Source of the DNA: Nitrospirota bacterium
GTDB taxonomy: Bacteria; NPL-UPA2; JAADIA01
Assembly: GCA_013151555.1 (NCBI GenBank)
Contig: JAADIA010000055.1
Location: 1 to 24,201, forward strand
DNA length: 24,201 bases
Reading direction: 5' to 3'
The notes under the pieces: generated by a model
Database searches by the model: none
Seen by the model: only the letters and a program-made list of their open reading frames with translations
Told to the model about the DNA's origin: nothing
In this document: positions 353 through 23,962 of the stretch, piece after piece
How positions within the stretch are numbered: the stretch's first letter is position 1
How the letters are laid out: each line of letters begins with the position of its first letter
Position numbers and translations under genes: made by a program

Positions 353-1537
353 TTATCCTTTATTCTTTAAAACTATTCGCTTAAACCTTCTTTTGCCTAC
401 CTGGAGGAGATATTCTTTCCCCACTTCCAATTCGGCATTTATATCATTAAGCCGCTCTCCATTTACCCTAACGGCTCCTTGCCGAATCAATCTTCTAAAC
501 CCACTTTTGCTGTCCGTTATATCTAAGCCCACATCCAGCAAGCTGACAAGAGAAACTTTGCTTCCTTTAACCCAAAGGGTCTCCTTTTTCAACTCGTCAG
601 GAAGACCTCTCTTCTGAAAGACGTTCTCAAACTCCTCTGCGGCCTTCCGGGCCGACTCTGCATCATGATAGAGAGTCACTATCTCCCGGGCCAGCTTTTT
701 CTTAGCCTCGCGAGGGTGCATTTCTTTTATTTCCGAGATAGGAAAATCCGTTAACAGCTCATAATATCTAAACATCAACTCATCGGAAATGGACATCGTT
801 TTTCCGAATATTTCCTGCGGCGGCTCATCCAGGCCGATATAATTGTCATAGCTCTTACTCATTTTACGAATGCCGTCGGTCCCTTCCAGAATAGGCAAAG
901 TAAGCACCACCTGAGGTTGCTGACCATAGCGCTTCTGAATAGTCCTTCCCATAAGGAGATTGAATTTCTGGTCCGTCCCTCCCACCTCTACATCAGCTTT
1001 CAAAACCACCGAATCATAGGCTTGAAGGAGAGGATAGAAAAATTCCAGAATACTAATCTCGTCCCCTTTTTTTAATCTTTCCTTAAATTCCGCTCGTTCC
1101 AACACCCTGGCCACTGTCTGTTTAGAAGTCAATTCTACCAGATCGCTCAGACTCATCTTATCCAGCCATTCGCTGTTAAAGACCACCTTAGTCATCTTCC
1201 GGTCAAGAATTTTAAGAACCTGCTCCTCATAGGTCCGGGCATTTTTTAAAACTTCCTCCCGGCTAAGCGGTTCCCGGGCTTCCGCCCTTCCACTAGGGTC
1301 TCCAATGGTAGCGGTAAAGGCACCAATCAAAAAGATGACTTCGTGCCCCAGGTCCTGAAACTGCCTGAGTTTTCTCAAGGGAACAGTATGGCCCAGATGA
1401 AGGTCGGGCCGGGAAGGATCAGCTCCATACTTGATCCGAAGACTCCTTCCCTCACCCAGTTTGGCAAGCATTTCTTCCTCGGAGATAATCTCCGAAGTCC
1501 CTCTCTTTATAATTTTTAGTTGTTCCTCTGCTCTCAT
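353..1537 (-). CDS. tyrS: Tyrosyl-tRNA synthetase (TyrZ-like, KMSKS type)
   Basis: Charges tRNA-Tyr with tyrosine in the cytoplasm. The 394-residue length is normal for a class I bacterial TyrRS. HLGH is at residues 47-50, the tyrosine-pocket segment LLQAYDS at about 170-176, GGTDQKFN at 186-193 and KMSKS at 225-229. An S4 RNA-binding domain follows at about 330-394 ([10 protein letters not shown], then [15 protein letters not shown]). An intact KMSKS and the QAYDS segment place it with the TyrZ/TyrRS-2 type rather than the KFGKS/T type of E. coli and Bacillus TyrS; that is family knowledge. The start is the first ATG before [13 protein letters not shown], with only a weak GAGAG behind it. 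It lies 279 bp after rpmB with a repeat-rich spacer, so it is probably transcribed separately. Confidence 0.95.
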
Positions 1538-5000: not shown

Positions 5001-5684
5001 TTTTATCTCCAATTCTTTCAAACCCTCAAACGTCTCCTGGTAACGCTCCGCCTTCCTCACCTGCCTCTTCAAAGAACCGATCTGCCTCTTCACCTCGCTA
5101 ACAATATCACTGACCCGAATCAGGTTCTGCTCGGTGGCTTCCAATTTCCGGAGAGCCGTTCTTTTCCTCTCCTTATATCTTGTGATTCCCGCTACTTCCT
5201 CAAAAAGGTAACGGCGATCATCCGGCTTGGAACTTAAGACAAGGTCAATCTTCCCTTGACCAATGAGAGAATAGGCCTCTGTTCCTATTCCCGTATCCAT
5301 AAAGAGTTCTTTTATATCCCGGAGACGGCAGGGAGTACGATTGATGAAATATTCGCTCTCCCCGGAACGAAATACCCGGCGGGTGATGGTTACTTCACTG
5401 TATTCTAAAGGAAGAAAGTTCTCCGGATTACTCAGGGTCAGGGAAACCTCAGCAATTCCCAAAGGTTTCCTTCCCACACTTCCGTTGAAGATAACATCCT
5501 CCATGCGGGAGCCCCTCAGGGCTAACGCACTTTGCTCCCCCAATACCCAGCGGATGGCATCGGCAACATTTGTCTTTCCACATCCGTTAGGACCTACAAT
5601 AGCAGTAATCCCCGGCTCGAAGACAAGTTTTGTCCTCTCAGGAAAAGACTTAAACCCAAATACCTCCAGCTTCTTAAAATACAA
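2046..5684 (-). CDS. smc: Chromosome segregation/condensation protein SMC
   Basis: ABC-type ATPase that, with ScpA and ScpB, compacts and segregates the chromosome. The 1212 residues are complete. Layout: head half with Walker A GPNGCGKTN (31-39) and Q-loop region GEQSALALRG; coiled coil about 170-500; hinge about 505-680, with FPGVRGTVADLIDFP and the glycine-rich GSKVKGGGLLRR at its end; second coiled coil about 690-1035, rich in K and E; second head half with signature LSGGERALTA (1099-1108), Walker B FCLLDEIDAPLDE (from 1123) and IIITHNKRT. The start MYFKKLEVFGFKSF is the family's usual N-terminus, preceded by a G-rich GGGGGTGGTG. It has its own promoter (5709-5737). scpA and scpB are not in the window. 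Confidence 0.97.
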   Translation of the reverse strand: MYFKKLEVFGFKSFPERTKLVFEPGITAIVGPNGCGKTNVADAIRWVLGEQSALALRGSRMEDVIFNGSVGRKPLGIAEVSLTLSNPENFLPLEYSEVTITRRVFRSGESEYFINRTPCRLRDIKELFMDTGIGTEAYSLIGQGKIDLVLSSKPDDRRYLFEEVAGITRYKERKRTALRKLEATEQNLIRVSDIVSEVKRQIGSLKRQVRKAERYQETFEGLKELEIKSALAEWSRMKEEEALSLEEAKRVKDEREKLSANLSEGDSRLEELRIKLLDLEKVLMERQEKSKELTAIINQTESHVLLLRERREGLSRDKKRAGGELGNIEEKLSQLQKEIKEKEAELSRLSQEREEREAKVEEGKKSLDEISRSIEKEERETEENKATVVEIVSREAKVKNNLAGLKVTLENLSARKRRLKVVEEQGRIEKEKVEERVKVLSTSLEEKRALLEEMKREQAKLQDRIAAFHSQLSVLRDKLNSQRDELVASSSRLDFLQDLKRRFEGYQAGVKAVLQNRERFPGVRGTVADLIDFPAELEMALEAALGGSVQNIVIETAGAAEEFIIYLREERKGRATFLPLDSLRGYENFPMESVVRWEGVVGTAFNLVKFDPVYKEVFSCLLGRTVVVEDLGKAKSIVQSLQEKSSSSGIGSSLDLVTLKGELISWRGVVSGGSKVKGGGLLRRDRKIEELRGKTESLKKAVSKMEAEEKVVLEDIEKLSRELEILEGKRRRQELEKAGLENDYSSVEEEKIRKEREISLLQSELREVEDDEERAGKEKEELSKELEELEQRNEVVQERIIFLQQLIEKEKDRQAELSREFTQYRVELASWEEKERSERSNLSRLKESFKECIEAQSSRFAEIEEADRRRVEIDKEEEEKEKVLKELFEKRDLLAGEIEKDAGERRKIISTVNEVEKELKDRRSRLGEIQDKIHSLDLHNSQLEMKMEGLKNRLSSEYQVSLEALFQERKAEKIDEETVSLKIAELRARLETMGPVNLVAIDENKELEERYNFLIEQLEDLIQAKESLQKVIAKINRTTRSLFMESFEQVREHFNTLFRTLFGGGRADLALVDESDILESGIDVIAQPPGKKLQSISLLSGGERALTAIALLFALFRVKPSPFCLLDEIDAPLDESNINRFNGLLQEFTSQSQFIIITHNKRTIAMANVMYGVTMEESGVSKLVSVRFQEGEKDKGVTKDALLDKERKEANV

Positions 5685-5708
5685 AACACACCACCCCCTT
5701 ACCCCCTA

Positions 5709-5737
5709 AATATACAGACTCCTTCAAAATAAGTCAA
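5709..5737 (-). promoter_or_regulatory. Sigma-70 type promoter of smc
   Basis: On the minus strand TTGACT (5732-5737) and TATATT (5709-5714) are separated by exactly 17 bp. Transcription would begin near 5702, leaving a leader of only about 18-20 nt that consists mainly of the G-rich ribosome binding region. No experimental support is available. The match is 5/6 in each hexamer with ideal spacing. Confidence 0.7.
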
Positions 5738-6118
5738 GAAAAAAACACCATAACTTGACTTGAATTTCTTCATGCCTACCACATGATGTGGTCATCTTCT
5801 AACCTGGATTATTCATTGTAAAGTAAATAATCCACCCGAAGGGCCGTATAATTAAAATGCTCAGCGTTTTAATTAAAGCTTGCCCTGAGAAATGCGAAGC
5901 ATTTCCAGGACTTTGGTCCTCGCAATCTTCCCCCGAGGAATCCAAGGGATTTCCGGGTCTGAGTCCCTGAAATTGCATCCACAATTTCCCGGGGCAGATT
6001 GCAAAGGGCGGGATAGTAAGAAGTCTCCCTGCTCCAATTTCAAGTAAGTTATGAATAAAACGGGTTAAGTAGACGATATCTGCGAATGCCGAAATTATCC
6101 CCTAACCTTCACTCCGAA
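5738..6118. repeat. Multi-hairpin spacer between yajC and smc
   Basis: There is no convincing gene here. Palindrome at 5778-5792 (ACCACAT, G, ATGTGGT). Hairpins: 5850-5874 (AATTAAAA / TTTTAATT); 5884-5909 (CCTG, bulged A, GAAATGC, GAA loop, GCATTTC, CAGG); 5907-5920 (AGGAC / GTCCT). A larger branched fold spans 5922-6002: GCAATCT pairs with AGATTGC, extended by a run of C against GGGG. It encloses smaller stems, including GAAATTG / CAATTTC at 5969-5988 and a GGAATCC / GGATTTCC stem near 5937-5954. No U-tract follows on the minus strand, so it is not a standard intrinsic terminator. Confidence 0.7.
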
Positions 6119-6442
6119 TCATCCGGGTTTGACTACCTGGGAAATAGCACTTCTGGAGAACTCCATCTTTACGTTATCGTCCACTTTCACAGTCACCGTG
6201 GTCTCTTTAACCCCGGCAACTATCCCGTGAATTCCCCCGGCAGTAACCACTTTATCCCCTTTTTTCAGGTTAGCTCTCATTTCCTCCGTCTTCCTCTTTT
6301 CTTTCTTCTGAGGAAGAAGAATGAGAATATAAAAAATGAAAAAAATGATAATGAGAGGCAAGAAAAAACTTACCGATGAAGCCCCGGCACCCGCTGCTCC
6401 CCCCCCGGGAGAAGTTCCCATAGCATACACTTCACTAAACAT
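6119..6442 (-). CDS. yajC: Preprotein translocase accessory subunit YajC
   Basis: Small inner-membrane protein that associates with SecDF and the SecYEG translocon. About 107 residues. A short Gly/Ala-rich periplasmic N-terminus precedes one membrane helix (VSFFLPLIIIFFIFYILILL), then the highly basic PQKKEKRKTEEMRANLKKGD. The cytoplasmic beta domain has the family motif KGDKVVTAGGIHGIVAGV and ends in SRSAISQVV. AGGAGG at 6450-6455 lies 7 nt from the ATG at 6442 and 4 nt from the one at 6445, so one of these adjacent ATGs is the start. A longer frame back to 6472 only reads into a repeat. Downstream of tgt, as in many bacteria (the queA-tgt-yajC order), which supports the call. secD and secF are not next to it. 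Confidence 0.93.
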   Translation of the reverse strand: MFSEVYAMGTSPGGGAAGAGASSVSFFLPLIIIFFIFYILILLPQKKEKRKTEEMRANLKKGDKVVTAGGIHGIVAGVKETTVTVKVDDNVKMEFSRSAISQVVKPG

Positions 6443-6458
6443 CATTACACCTCCTTTT

Positions 6459-6599
6459 AATGAGCACATCACTTAGTGAAACTAAGTGATAAGTGCGAAT
6501 TAACTCCGCCGCTTAAGGGGAAATTATCGCAGAGAATTTCCCCTTGTTTAAGCAAGTGAGTGTGCACATCGTCCGCCTCAGGCGGATAATAAGTGCGAA
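6459..6599. repeat. Composite hairpin element, copy 1 (modules A, B, A')
   Basis: Reading the plus strand: AATGA, then module A (6464-6496): GCAC, ATCACTTAGT, loop GAA, ACTAAGTGAT, 2-nt bulge AA, GTGC, followed by GAATTA. Module B (6511-6553): AAGGGGAAATT, loop ATCGCAGAG, AATTTCCCCTT, with GCTT / AAGC outside. Module A' (6564-6596): GCAC, inner stem with TCCGCC / GGCGGA, bulge AA, GTGC, then GAA. A and A' have the same length (33 nt) and lie exactly 100 bp apart as direct repeats. 6459-6555 aligns almost base for base with the reverse complement of 20480-20577. On the coding strand the element ends 3 nt before the Shine-Dalgarno of yajC. Confidence 0.85.
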
Positions 6600-6710
6600 A
6601 ACTTCGTAACCACCACCCCCTTCTCCCTCCAAGGAAGAGGGCAATATTTATACCTTACCATACTTCAAGAAAACTCGTCGCTTAACTCTTCATAACCTTC
6701 GGGCAAATTT

Positions 6711-8043
<1,333 letters not shown>

Positions 8044-13130: not shown

Positions 13131-14009
13131 TTAATAATCCCACGCGGCCGAATCCGGTAAAAGACATTGTTTTTGTTTATCCCAGTCAGAAGGGACTGTT
13201 TGAGGAACCTGCCGCGGGCGTATCGGACAACAGCTGCAGGGAGGAAAACCGTCTTTACCTTTGCGCAAGATACCGGAAACAACCTCGAAACAGTCTTTAA
13301 GCTGAAAAAAGACCGCCCGGCAGTTTCCGATTAGAACTTCCTTTTGCAACTTCCGCGCCTGCATTTCCTTATCATATTTTCCTCCGTCAGAGAACGGACA
13401 CTTCTCCCCTCGATAACCCCAGGTACGAGCTTCTACCTTGCGGCCATCCGGCAACACCATAGGGTAAGTTTCCGTCCGCAAACCTAAACAGGGAGCGCCC
13501 ACGAACGTTTCCACTACATGATGGAAAGTATTCACGGCATACCCGACCCCCAAGAGAAGACAAGACCCTCCATCAGCGTAGAGAAGCCCTAAAGGGGATT
13601 GCGGCCCCATAGTTAATGTTCGATGATGAAATTCGGTATATCGTCGACCATTTTTTCCCCAGGCAGCGAAAGAGTGCGTAGGGTTCCAGCTCCTGTACAC
13701 CCCGGGCATCCTCCAGAACAAGTCCGGAATGGCGCCATTGGTAGTAGGAGTCTCCCCGGGATGGAAATAGCCCGGGCCCCCTTCTTTAAAAGGTGCTCCA
13801 TGATTAAAAGAGGGCATCAAAAGCGTCCCTTTCGGTGTTACCAGCTCCATTAAGGCTTCAACAACCGTACGGGGGCCACCCTCTACGCGGCCAAAACTTT
13901 TCAAGGACGAATGCACGATCATATTAATTCCGGGAGTTATGCCCAACTTGCGCAAGCCGGAGCTGATATCTTCTTTGTTCACCTGAGATATAGGTAATGA
14001 GCTAACCAT
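13131..14009 (-). CDS. AAC(3)-family (Antibiotic_NAT) N-acetyltransferase
   Basis: 292 residues of the aminoglycoside 3-N-acetyltransferase superfamily, which uses acetyl-CoA; many members do not act on antibiotics. Visible blocks: VHSSLKSFGRVEGGPRTVVEA (32-52), GTLLMPSFNHG (61-71), SWNPTHSFAAWG (107-118, His112), GPQSPLGLLYADGG (135-148), LLLGVGYAVNTFHHVVE (151-167, with the family's HxxE). C-terminal cysteines CSCC (258-261) are followed by PIRPR. GGAGGG lies 8 nt before the ATG. The gene stands alone, with repeats downstream and 111 bp to the regulator upstream. The substrate cannot be read from sequence, and calling it a resistance gene would be unjustified. Confidence 0.8.
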   Translation of the reverse strand: MVSSLPISQVNKEDISSGLRKLGITPGINMIVHSSLKSFGRVEGGPRTVVEALMELVTPKGTLLMPSFNHGAPFKEGGPGYFHPGETPTTNGAIPDLFWRMPGVYRSWNPTHSFAAWGKNGRRYTEFHHRTLTMGPQSPLGLLYADGGSCLLLGVGYAVNTFHHVVETFVGAPCLGLRTETYPMVLPDGRKVEARTWGYRGEKCPFSDGGKYDKEMQARKLQKEVLIGNCRAVFFQLKDCFEVVSGILRKGKDGFPPCSCCPIRPRQVPQTVPSDWDKQKQCLLPDSAAWDY

Positions 14010-19818: not shown

Positions 19819-20289
19819 TTACTTCCCCATCTTCTCAAACAAATTAACCATTTCGATAGCCGCCAGAGCTGCATCGCTTCCCTTATTACCGGCCTTGGTT
19901 CCTGCTCTTTCAATAGCCTGCTCCAGAGTATCAGCCGTTATCACTCCAAAAATTGTCGGAACCCCTGTAGTCAGAGAAATATTTGCAATCCCTTTAGCGA
20001 CTTCGCCGGCGATATAGTCAAAATGAGGAGTCTCTCCCCGAATCACCGCCCCGAGGCAAATGATAGCATCGTATTTACCGCTTCCGGCCATCCGGCTGGC
20101 GGCATAGGGAATCTCGAAGGAACCGGGAACCCAGGCTATTTCTATCTCTTCCTCTTTCACTCCATGCCGGATAAGAGTATCAGTAGCTCCTTCCAGGAGT
20201 TTCTTGGTAATAAAATTATTGAACCTCCCGGCTACTAATCCAAATTTCTTACCCCGGACAACCAGTTGCCCTTCCAATATCTTTATCAT
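19819..20289 (-). CDS. ribH: 6,7-dimethyl-8-ribityllumazine synthase
   Basis: Condenses 5-amino-6-ribitylaminouracil with 3,4-dihydroxy-2-butanone 4-phosphate to lumazine. 156 residues, the usual length. [40 protein letters not shown] with the catalytic His in [35 protein letters not shown] near the C-terminus. AGGAGG (20298-20303) is 8 nt before the ATG and directly follows the end of hairpin element copy 2. Fourth rib gene after ribD, ribE and ribBA, in pathway-cluster order. Confidence 0.97.
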
Positions 20290-20303: not shown

Positions 20304-20577
20304 AATGAGCTCACAACTTACGCGACTAAAAGAAGCGTAAGTTGTTTGAGCGAATTATCCCGCGGAGTATGCCAAAAATTATCAAAGAGAATTTTTGCAT
20401 ATCCCACGAAGCGGGACCCCGTTTTCAACCAGCACAAATAACACATGCTACTTTCAATTACGGAAGTTATAAAACTCCTTTGCTTAGACAAGCCGAAATT
20501 CTCATTCGATAATTTCAGCTTAAGCTTCGGAGTTAATTCACACTTATCACTTATTTTCATTAAGTGATGTGTTCGTT
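20304..20577. repeat. Composite hairpin element, copy 2 (A-B facing B-A)
   Basis: Left unit, plus strand: AATGA; module A (20309-20351): GCTC, ACAACTTACGC, 11-nt loop, GCGTAAGTTGT, bulge TT, GAGC, then GAATTA; module B (20368-20401): TATG, bulged C, CAAAAATT, loop ATCAAAGAG, AATTTTTG, CATA. Right unit, inverted: module A (20540-20572): ACAC / GTGT outer stem, 2-nt bulge, ATCACTTA / TAAGTGAT; module B (20490-20521): AAGCCGAAATT, loop ATCGAATGAG on the minus strand, AATTTCAGCTT. The whole is a 274-bp imperfect inverted repeat with about 60-80 nt of unique centre. Its right end overlaps the 3' end of ribBA; its left end abuts the ribH Shine-Dalgarno. Confidence 0.85.
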
Positions 20578-21767
20578 AACAAATGCCCCAACTTCTCCCG
20601 CTTAGCTTTCAGGTAATCCCTGTTTAGTTCGTGGGGAGCGATTTCTATAGGAACCCTTTCTATAATCTTCAATCCATATCCCTCCAAACCCACTATCTTC
20701 CTGGGATTATTGGTAAGAAGCCGAATGGTAGATAATCCCAGATCTACCAGAATCTGAGCTCCAATTCCATAATCCCGAAGGTCGGGCTCGAATCCCAACT
20801 TTTTGTTAGCCTCTACTGTATCTAAACCTTCGTCCTGGAGAGCATAGGCACGCAGTTTATTCACTAAACCAATGCCTCTCCCCTCCTGACGCATATAGAG
20901 AAGCACTCCTGCTCCTTTCTCAGAGATCCGTTTCAAGGATTGACGCAACTGTTCCCCGCAATCGCAACGGCGAGAATGGAAGACATCCCCGGTAAGACAT
21001 TCAGAGTGGACCCGGACAAGGACATTTTTCTTCCCTTTGACTTTTCCTCTAATGAGAGCCAAATGATGTTCTTCATCTATAGTTGTCTCATAGACAACCA
21101 ATTGAAAATCGCCAAACTCTGTTGGCAAAGAAGTAGCTATTGTCTTTCTAATCAGTTTCTCCATTCGACGACGGTATTGGATAAGGTCGGTAATGGTACA
21201 GATACAAAGATTATGTTCCTTAGCAAACTTGATAAGCTGGGGAACCCGGGCCATAGTCCCGTCATCATTCATAATCTCGCAGATGACTCCTGCCGGATAG
21301 AGGTCGGCTAATCTAGCCAAGTCAACAGCAGTTTCGGTATGACCGGCTCGAGTTAAAACGCCTCCCTTTTTAGCTCGCAGGGGAAAGATATGACCGGGGC
21401 GAGCTAAATCCGAAGCTTTCGTCTTCGGATTTAAGACAGCTTTTATAGTAGTCGCTCTATCATGAGCCGAGATGCCCGTAGTTATCCCTTTTTTACCATC
21501 TATGGACACGGTAAAGGCAGTATCGAAACGGTCTCTATTATCATTGACCATAGGATAAATTTCCAACTCATCCAACCTCTCTTCAATAATAGGGAGACAG
21601 ATAAGTCCCCGTCCATGTTTGGCCATAAAATTTATTATTTGGGGAGTAACCTTTTCAGCAGCTACAATCAAGTCGCCTTCGTTCTCCCGGTCCTCATCAT
21701 CAATGACAATAACCATCCGCCCCTGGCGAATTTCTTCAATAACTTTAGGTATAGGATCAAACTTCAT
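20547..21767 (-). CDS. ribBA: Bifunctional 3,4-dihydroxy-2-butanone-4-phosphate synthase / GTP cyclohydrolase II
   Basis: Provides both entry metabolites of riboflavin synthesis. 406 residues. RibB half (1-200): acidic loop [10 protein letters not shown] (23-32), [26 protein letters not shown] (142-154, His143). RibA half (about 205-397): [21 protein letters not shown] with zinc ligands Cys257, Cys268 and Cys270; [11 protein letters not shown] (291-301); [22 protein letters not shown]. The start ATG directly abuts the ribE stop codon (TAAATG). Residues 398-406 (TNTSLNENK) and the stop are encoded by the end of the hairpin repeat element, so the family sequence really ends at KLGHLL. Both catalytic halves look intact. 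Confidence 0.97.
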
Positions 21768-23779: not shown

Positions 23780-23806
23780 CATCTATTCAGGTTCATGTTC
23801 TTTTTA

Positions 23807-23947
23807 ATCTTCTTCCATCTAGCCTTTCACTATCGGCTCTGGATTTCCTGTCCGCCGGCTTTCCTAGCAGACTAACCAGATCCATCCGCCTTCGGCGGAC
23901 TCGCGGGCTTTTACCGCCGGTGGGGAATTTCACCCCGTCCCGAAGAT
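23807..23947 (-). promoter_or_regulatory. FMN riboswitch (RFN element) controlling the rib operon
   Basis: The RNA starts AUCUUCGGGA and contains the conserved GGGGUGAAAUUCCCCACC then GGCGGUAA, followed by GCCCGCGAG, later CCAGAGCCGAUAGU, then GGAUGG-like CUAGAUGG, and closes with GAAGAU pairing back to AUCUUC (P1: 23947-23942 with 23812-23807). The variable arm is TCCGCC / GGCGGA with a GAA loop. The arm just before CCAGAGCC carries an extra stem GUCUGC / GCGGAC, longer than in the common form. Family knowledge: FMN binding to the aptamer represses riboflavin genes, here by releasing the terminator at 23749-23779. Confidence 0.95.
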
Positions 23948-23962
23948 TTTTTTATCTAACAT

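Follow-up and report, generated by a model that had tools for sequence, protein, structure and literature searches.

The hairpins described here probably make up a family of small mobile DNA elements that are non-autonomous and resemble REP/BIME and BOX elements; their folded single-stranded ends would be recognised in trans. Four of the hairpins lie in the window, by which we mean the whole stretch analysed (24,201 nucleotides of contig JAADIA010000055.1, from a Nitrospirota bacterium). Hundreds more were found when further copies, whose absence would have refuted an earlier note on this DNA, were sought in the window's own genome and in related genomes with a covariance model. The family is a very common and apparently undescribed class of repeats in uncultured bacteria. 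The open-licence literature on Omnitrophota and repeats and on REP, MITE and BOX elements contained no description of it, and a survey of the Omnitrophota (PMC10066038) makes no mention of repeats.

Hairpins in the window

The four hairpins claimed by the earlier note were all present, with the stems and the GAA or GAATTA tail described there and a 2-nt 3' bulge reading AA, AA, TT and AA in turn. As also claimed, three are preceded by AATGA, AATGA and AACGA, respectively; the internal copy at 6564-6596 is preceded by GTGAGTGT. A covariance model (R1, built from 41 copies, with rough E-values) matched exactly these four A hairpins when the window was searched. Two groups are formed: A1-B1-A2 upstream of yajC, and A3-B3 together with an oppositely oriented A4-B4 between ribBA and ribH. 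Folding is given below as z scores of single-stranded DNA against dinucleotide shuffles.

The left-end (LE) hairpin A1 occupies 6459-6502 on the plus strand (hairpin proper 6464-6496) and reads AATGA-GCAC-ATCACTTAGT-gaa-ACTAAGTGAT-AA-GTGC-GAATTA; model R1 matched it at 6448-6502 with 66 bits, and its fold z is -5.75. Its LE end directly abuts the Shine-Dalgarno sequence of yajC (AAAGGAGGTG, 6448-6457, minus strand) and faces the start of this gene, which encodes a preprotein translocase subunit (6119-6445, minus strand; Pfam YajC, 3.9e-28). The B1 stem-loop follows at 6511-6553 (plus strand; GCTTAA-GGGGAAATT-atcgcagag-AATTTCCCC-(TTGT bulge)-TTAAGC), in a region (6502-6558) with a fold z of -4.95, and a B module is also found between A hairpins at other loci of the same genome. 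A2, the second A hairpin of the array (6559-6602, hairpin 6564-6596, plus strand), has a GCAC/GTGC stem and a TCCGCC inner stem and carries GTGAGT in place of TAATGA. It is the weakest of the four: its inner stem contains a single C.A mismatch and a single G.T, its model match (6548-6602) scores 35.5 bits and its fold z is -2.72.

LE hairpin A3 lies at 20304-20357 on the plus strand (hairpin 20309-20351; GCTC/GAGC, ACAACTTACGC, TT bulge; 59.2 bits, fold z -5.51). It abuts the Shine-Dalgarno sequence and faces the start of ribH, the lumazine synthase gene (19819-20289, minus strand; Pfam DMRL_synthase, 2.5e-60). Module B3 (20358-20416, plus strand; fold z -4.94) has a TCCCGC...GCGGGA outer stem and an inner stem with a conserved AATTATC..AGAGAATT loop region. 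Hairpin A4, on the minus strand at 20534-20577 (hairpin 20572-20540; ACAC/GTGT; 53 bits, fold z -4.34), is inserted at the 3' end of ribBA and is thus an exception to the start-codon placement described below. It is followed by B4 (20474-20533, minus strand; ACTCC-GA-AGCTTA...TAAGC-AA-AGGAGT), which matches the array repeat (20474-20579). The insertion extends ribBA (20547-21767, minus strand), the last residues of which (about TNTSLNENK), together with the stop codon, are encoded by the hairpin element. The riboflavin genes ribD-ribE-ribBA-ribH are headed by an FMN riboswitch (RF00050, 92.6 bits; 23803-23951, minus strand), and elsewhere in the window (13131-14009, minus strand) is a gene for an aminoglycoside 3-N-acetyltransferase-like protein (Pfam Antibiotic_NAT).

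The earlier note had not recognised the hairpins as a named family, and none of those in the window matched Rfam. Above the gathering score, a search of Rfam 15 returned only the FMN riboswitch in the window and nothing of note in the element-bearing loci.

Architecture and covariation of the end hairpins

The palindrome extends beyond its earlier description, with a TAAT/ATTA pair lying outside a conserved tandem GA/GA mismatch, and an A unit reads TAAT-GA-GCAC...(AA)GTGC-GA-ATTA. Each end hairpin is thus made up of an outer stem, the tandem GA/GA, a 4-bp stem, a 2-nt bulge on the 3' side, an inner stem and an apical loop. The bulge has two nucleotides in most of the 71 ends aligned and sometimes one, and of 41 aligned left ends, 39 carry 5'-TGAG...CGAA-3' (the GA/GA mismatch). 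The context of this mismatch would fit the 5'-pyrimidine-GA-purine rule that stable sheared tandem G.A pairs follow.

That stem sequences change with pairing kept, proposed originally from four copies, is strongly supported by covariation in two larger alignments. Among the 41 aligned copies 94.9% of cells are paired, double-sided changes are seen at 11 of 13 pairs, and there are 75 double-change cells compared with 19.0 +/- 4.8 in shuffles; the outer GCAC/GTGC and TAAT/ATTA pairs are little informative here, as most of these sequences had been collected with a pattern that required them. When partners were slid by 1-3 columns, pairing fell to 22-41%. The alignment of 30 right ends (RE) was found by the model and so is free of the pattern constraint on the outer pairs; 97.4% of its cells are paired and it holds 100 double-change cells against 26.5 when shuffled, with a bias toward similar right ends introduced by detection with the left-end model. 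Right-end stem variants include outer AAGT/ACTT versus AAAT/ATTT, as well as GGAC/GTCC, GGCC/GGCC and AGCC/GGCT, and the GA/GA mismatch is nearly constant (mostly TGAG/CGAA or TGAA/TGAA). Stems that no longer pair, which would have spoken against the earlier claim, were looked for, and 95-97% of cells were found to pair across copies. Inner stems, apical stems and the B arm vary almost freely in sequence, yet their pairing is near-perfect.

Complete elements and their variants

A complete element measures 130-290 bp and consists of an LE hairpin, the central stem-loop B and an inverted RE hairpin. Neither the B partners nor the inverted RE, nor the siting against Shine-Dalgarno sequences described below, figured in the earlier note. 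In several elements LE, B and RE fold as a cloverleaf, and for one element the DNA fold energy was -43 versus -13.2 +/- 3.2 kcal/mol (z -9.47). Of 105 left ends, 29 had a recognised inverted RE partner, in 28 cases at a distance of 127-384 bp. The other 76 have no recognised right end and are solitary or accompanied by B only, so the mobile unit varies. Because the RE is an inverted LE, the GA/GA motif stands on the top strand at the LE and on the bottom strand at the RE. Two equivalent ends of this kind would be expected of a DNA element and would sit uneasily with one RNA function.

Besides complete elements there are arrays of A-B units and solo copies. The A inner stems of the A-B-A-B arrays in the window's own genome fall into three main types, and the B modules are of several types as well. 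One tandem array (L071, 4443-4737, minus strand), in which A-type hairpins about 81 bp apart are each joined by ACCCCGAGATCTGGAGGGGT, is a local amplification. Other central modules, CCTGAGAAATTCGAAGAATTTCCAGG.. and CCCGATAGC..GAAAATTTAGAATAAATTTTC..GCTATCGGG, were seen beside A hairpins (L029 2725-2860, L031, L026, L030, L043, L056, L099 and L103), the latter module being common to the window's phylum and the Omnitrophota.

Distribution across genomes

DNA search of the window's own genome, a 1.81-Mb metagenome-assembled genome (MAG), gave 46 matching pieces, and model R1 gave 44 matches. A strict pattern (TAATGAGCAC N18-48 AGTGCGAATTA) was then scanned over 84,980 species, one genome per species; among the matches listed, practically all titled records were Candidatus Omnitrophota. 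Twelve Omnitrophota genomes had 5-94 R1 matches each, and 69 of 145 evenly drawn Omnitrophota genomes had matches. In a broad sample, 9 of 386 genomes matched: six of the nine genomes from the window's small phylum and 3 of 377 others. The three fall in two other families, in one of which copies also abut Shine-Dalgarno sequences (L210, L217); the protein read downstream of the L210 copy resembles ribosomal protein S4. The window's phylum appears separate from the Omnitrophota, because the nearest 60 genomes include only eight of its phylum.

Left ends were also found in two viral contigs, L203 (IMG/VR, 46 kb; match at 6765-6819, minus strand) and L202 (match at 1428-1482, minus strand). The former is a tailed-phage contig encoding portal- and protease-like phage proteins, and its element starts at the stop codon of a gene. 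Viruses are therefore a possible vehicle of spread.

Empty sites in related genomes

The copies are mobile in Omnitrophota, as several of their sites are empty in congeners. When an 8-kb stretch of a UBA1562 genome (G063, locus L117) was used as a query, its flanks matched in four genomes of the same genus and its elements did not. The elements at 926-1114, 1575-1710 and 5526-5766 are each absent from the syntenic site in at least one of these genomes; going by gene names read from the sequences, the empty sites include that of a 189-bp element between the S18 and L9 genes and another between L9 and a DnaB-like gene. The element at 5526-5766 joins CCTCCTTTT / AATGAG...CTCAC / TTAAAA at a place where genome G541 reads uninterrupted CCTCCTTTTTTAAAA.

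Joined-flank queries were made for 12 further elements, most of which matched across the junction in at least one relative, and those for L271 and L258 matched gaplessly or nearly so. In the relatives of L271 the two genes adjoin or overlap (..TTTTTCC-ATGATAG..), and in UBA1562 the element sits exactly between them, its TAA serving as the stop codon of the upstream gene. Junctions were otherwise variable, many with small indels, so that these between-species comparisons place the ends only to within a few bases. Two of the insertions in this genome, at L282 and L117, lie within apparent ribosomal-protein operons (L14-L24 and S18-L9) that are contiguous in relatives; at L282 there is no space for a Shine-Dalgarno sequence between the element and the ATG of the following gene.

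No significant target-site duplication was seen in 31 elements (flank similarity 3.58 versus 3.31 +/- 0.16 shuffled, with 57 of 1000 shuffles as high). Several of the empty-site comparisons show clean junctions without duplication, and single sites at L260 and L280 resemble duplications of 4-6 nt. Mobility in the window's own genome and phylum would follow by analogy with the Omnitrophota.

Relation to known repeats and the search for a mobilising enzyme

REP sequences are palindromes of 20-50 nt that follow a conserved tetranucleotide, those of group 2 being bulged, and in BIMEs they come in pairs (PMC8266576); the spacer hairpin of REPINs carries compensatory changes (PMC3116915), as does that of the present family. 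The hairpins share with REP/BIME/REPIN their short, extragenic, imperfect palindromes, a conserved bulge, a fixed motif at the 5' foot and dozens of copies per genome, and their inverted pairs around a variable linker correspond to those of BIMEs and REPINs. The REP tag, however, is an unpaired GTAG or CGTC, in place of which this family has TGAG/CGAA with tandem GA pairs and an outer stem. It further differs from REP in lying flush to Shine-Dalgarno sequences and start codons and in its hosts, the Omnitrophota and one further small phylum.

Pneumococcal BOX elements have a modular boxA-boxB(n)-boxC organisation, are structured when single-stranded and are non-autonomous (PMC3049150). Two end modules, a middle module, variable composition, single-strand structure and lack of autonomy are likewise features of the present family. 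Its end modules, unlike those of BOX, are inverted copies of one hairpin type, and the likeness to BOX rests on architecture. With IS200/IS605 elements and their MITE derivatives it shares subterminal hairpins with unpaired bases, an orientation-specific YYTT left flank and the absence of a consistent target-site duplication. The end hairpins of IS200/IS605 are same-strand, whereas these are inverted, with the RE GA pairs only on the opposite strand, and there is no tnpA inside or beside the element. Two further classes were considered and rejected: a MITE of a DDE-type insertion sequence, for lack of a fixed-length target-site duplication, and integron attC sites, since the ends TAATGAG and CGAATTA contain no R box (RYYYAAC / GTTRRRY). 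The best reading is a new REP/BOX-like superfamily, filed outside REP because it has neither the GTAG/CGTC tag nor flanking RAYT genes.

Bulged extragenic palindromes with a fixed preceding motif, arranged as inverted pairs (PMC8266576, PMC3116915), could also be ordinary REP/BIME elements mobilised by a RAYT, a Y1 HUH transposase, whose gene lies at another place in the genome; CGTC-tagged REPs are likewise without a dedicated or flanking RAYT (PMC3733652), and Y1_Tnp genes are common in element-bearing genomes. No mobilising enzyme was identified when Y1_Tnp was searched in more than 40 genomes and 54 Y1_Tnp loci were scanned with two models. Linkage to RAYT/Y1_Tnp genes, in the manner of GTAG-type REPs, was rejected: a convincing copy lay near 1 of the 54 loci (L192, about 150 bp past the gene and behind a terminator), which is about what copy density alone predicts. 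Y1_Tnp genes are about equally common in element-rich (15 of 16) and element-free (13 of 16) genomes, and none was found in G061, which has 50 copies, or in G001, both of which are incomplete MAGs. Together with the missing tags, these data make mobilisation by a RAYT unlikely.

None of the 105 left ends belonged to an element enclosing a transposase ORF, as an autonomous form would; one 3.4-kb spacing (L104) was taken as two separate elements. Replication-strand bias was absent in the one single-contig genome considered (G146, with its GC-skew switch at 915-1000 kb), with 16 of 30 copies leading and 14 lagging. A bias would be expected under a lagging-strand mechanism of the IS200/IS605 type. 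The window's own genome also contains a RAYT-like Y1_Tnp gene flanked by an inverted repeat, AAAGGGGACAGGCTACTTT / AAAGTAGCCTGTCCCCTTT (L009, 1430-2165, contig C1), which is a separate element family unrelated to the A and B hairpins.

Placement against gene starts

In the window's own genome, 27 copies that lead their array were examined, and 25 of these face the start of an opposite-strand gene. In 24 cases a Shine-Dalgarno sequence was seen within a few nucleotides of the element edge, and the start codon is 9-27 nt away. For random placement in the window's non-coding sequence (about 4.1 kb, 18 genes), a flush and oriented position was estimated at about 1%. A script applied to 82 Omnitrophota left ends assigned 37 to a Shine-Dalgarno sequence plus start, 14 to a position directly beside an opposite start, too close for a Shine-Dalgarno sequence to fit, and 13 to a position after a gene end (five with the element's TAA as stop codon), leaving 18 unassigned, many of which look by eye like Shine-Dalgarno sequences or terminator T-tails. 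At least 51 of the 82 thus face an opposite-strand start, an LE facing a start is favoured about 3:1, and roughly one copy in four follows a terminator or lies at a stop codon. The bases that precede TAATGAG are T (90%), T (73%) and then pyrimidines. A single rule, insertion after a pyrimidine-T run, could account for both anti-Shine-Dalgarno sequences and terminator tails; a similar pattern could arise if, in compact genomes, copies survived only at gene boundaries.

This placement is what would be expected of a cis-acting RNA leader, a 5'-UTR hairpin beside the Shine-Dalgarno sequence that tunes translation or mRNA stability and whose fold is kept for that purpose. Covariation of the stems agrees with such a role, and facing gene starts is the reverse of the preference of BOX, RUP and IS elements in pneumococci, which are over-represented between convergent genes (PMC3049150). 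At the left end, however, the conserved GA/GA pairs are antisense with respect to the downstream gene; congeners have cleanly empty sites, and their genes retain a Shine-Dalgarno sequence of their own (L317); and the copies after terminators or at stop codons also speak against this reading. Moreover, the downstream products (GroEL, S11, L27, PPDK, HisRS, IlvC, Fba, MetF, MiaB, LemA, YajC and RibH, of which YajC and RibH were identified by Pfam and the remainder by reading the sequences) have no common function or pathway, by which a riboswitch-like regulon was also rejected. We consider an RNA leader improbable.

Similarly improbable, in our estimation, is a reading in which the element inserts, or is retained, only at the boundary of translationally linked genes, and in which the enzyme that moves it does not belong to the known HUH/RAYT scheme. 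At the upstream stop codon the right-end sequence is TAAGTGAG, and the left end either has the sequence CTCATTA-AATG or lies against the Shine-Dalgarno sequence; the outer stem would then join the upstream stop codon to the downstream start, and the folded insert, by bringing stop and start close in the mRNA, could keep coupling in core operons (S18-L9, L14-L24) workable. Least probable is a mutation bias in which template switching within a palindrome copies one arm onto the other, making decaying palindromes look covarying: free variation with near-perfect pairing in the inner stems, apical stems and B arm would suit it, but arm copying would erase the GA/GA, 2-nt bulge and internal-loop mismatches that are conserved across two phyla, and both copy number and empty sites are left unexplained.

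Proposed mechanism and implications

For the favoured reading, a family of non-autonomous mobile elements, we propose that the single-stranded ends, once folded, are recognised in trans by an enzyme that reads their shape and a few fixed bases. The bases read by this predicted enzyme would be TGAG/CGAA with its GA pairs, plus the bulge. Recognition by shape would let stem sequences drift provided that pairing is kept. Insertions would be viable at gene boundaries only, in most cases with the left end turned toward the next gene and lying flush to its Shine-Dalgarno sequence or start codon, and this placement may reflect either target choice (a pyrimidine-T sequence such as CCTCCTT) or later selection.

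Insertion is tolerated where core genes are most sensitive, at the Shine-Dalgarno sequence or start codon of those for ribosomal proteins, GroEL and tRNA synthetases. With its many naturally covarying bulged DNA hairpins, the family offers material for learning which bases a mobilising enzyme reads, and with it the question of what mobilises RAYT-less REPs becomes directly testable.
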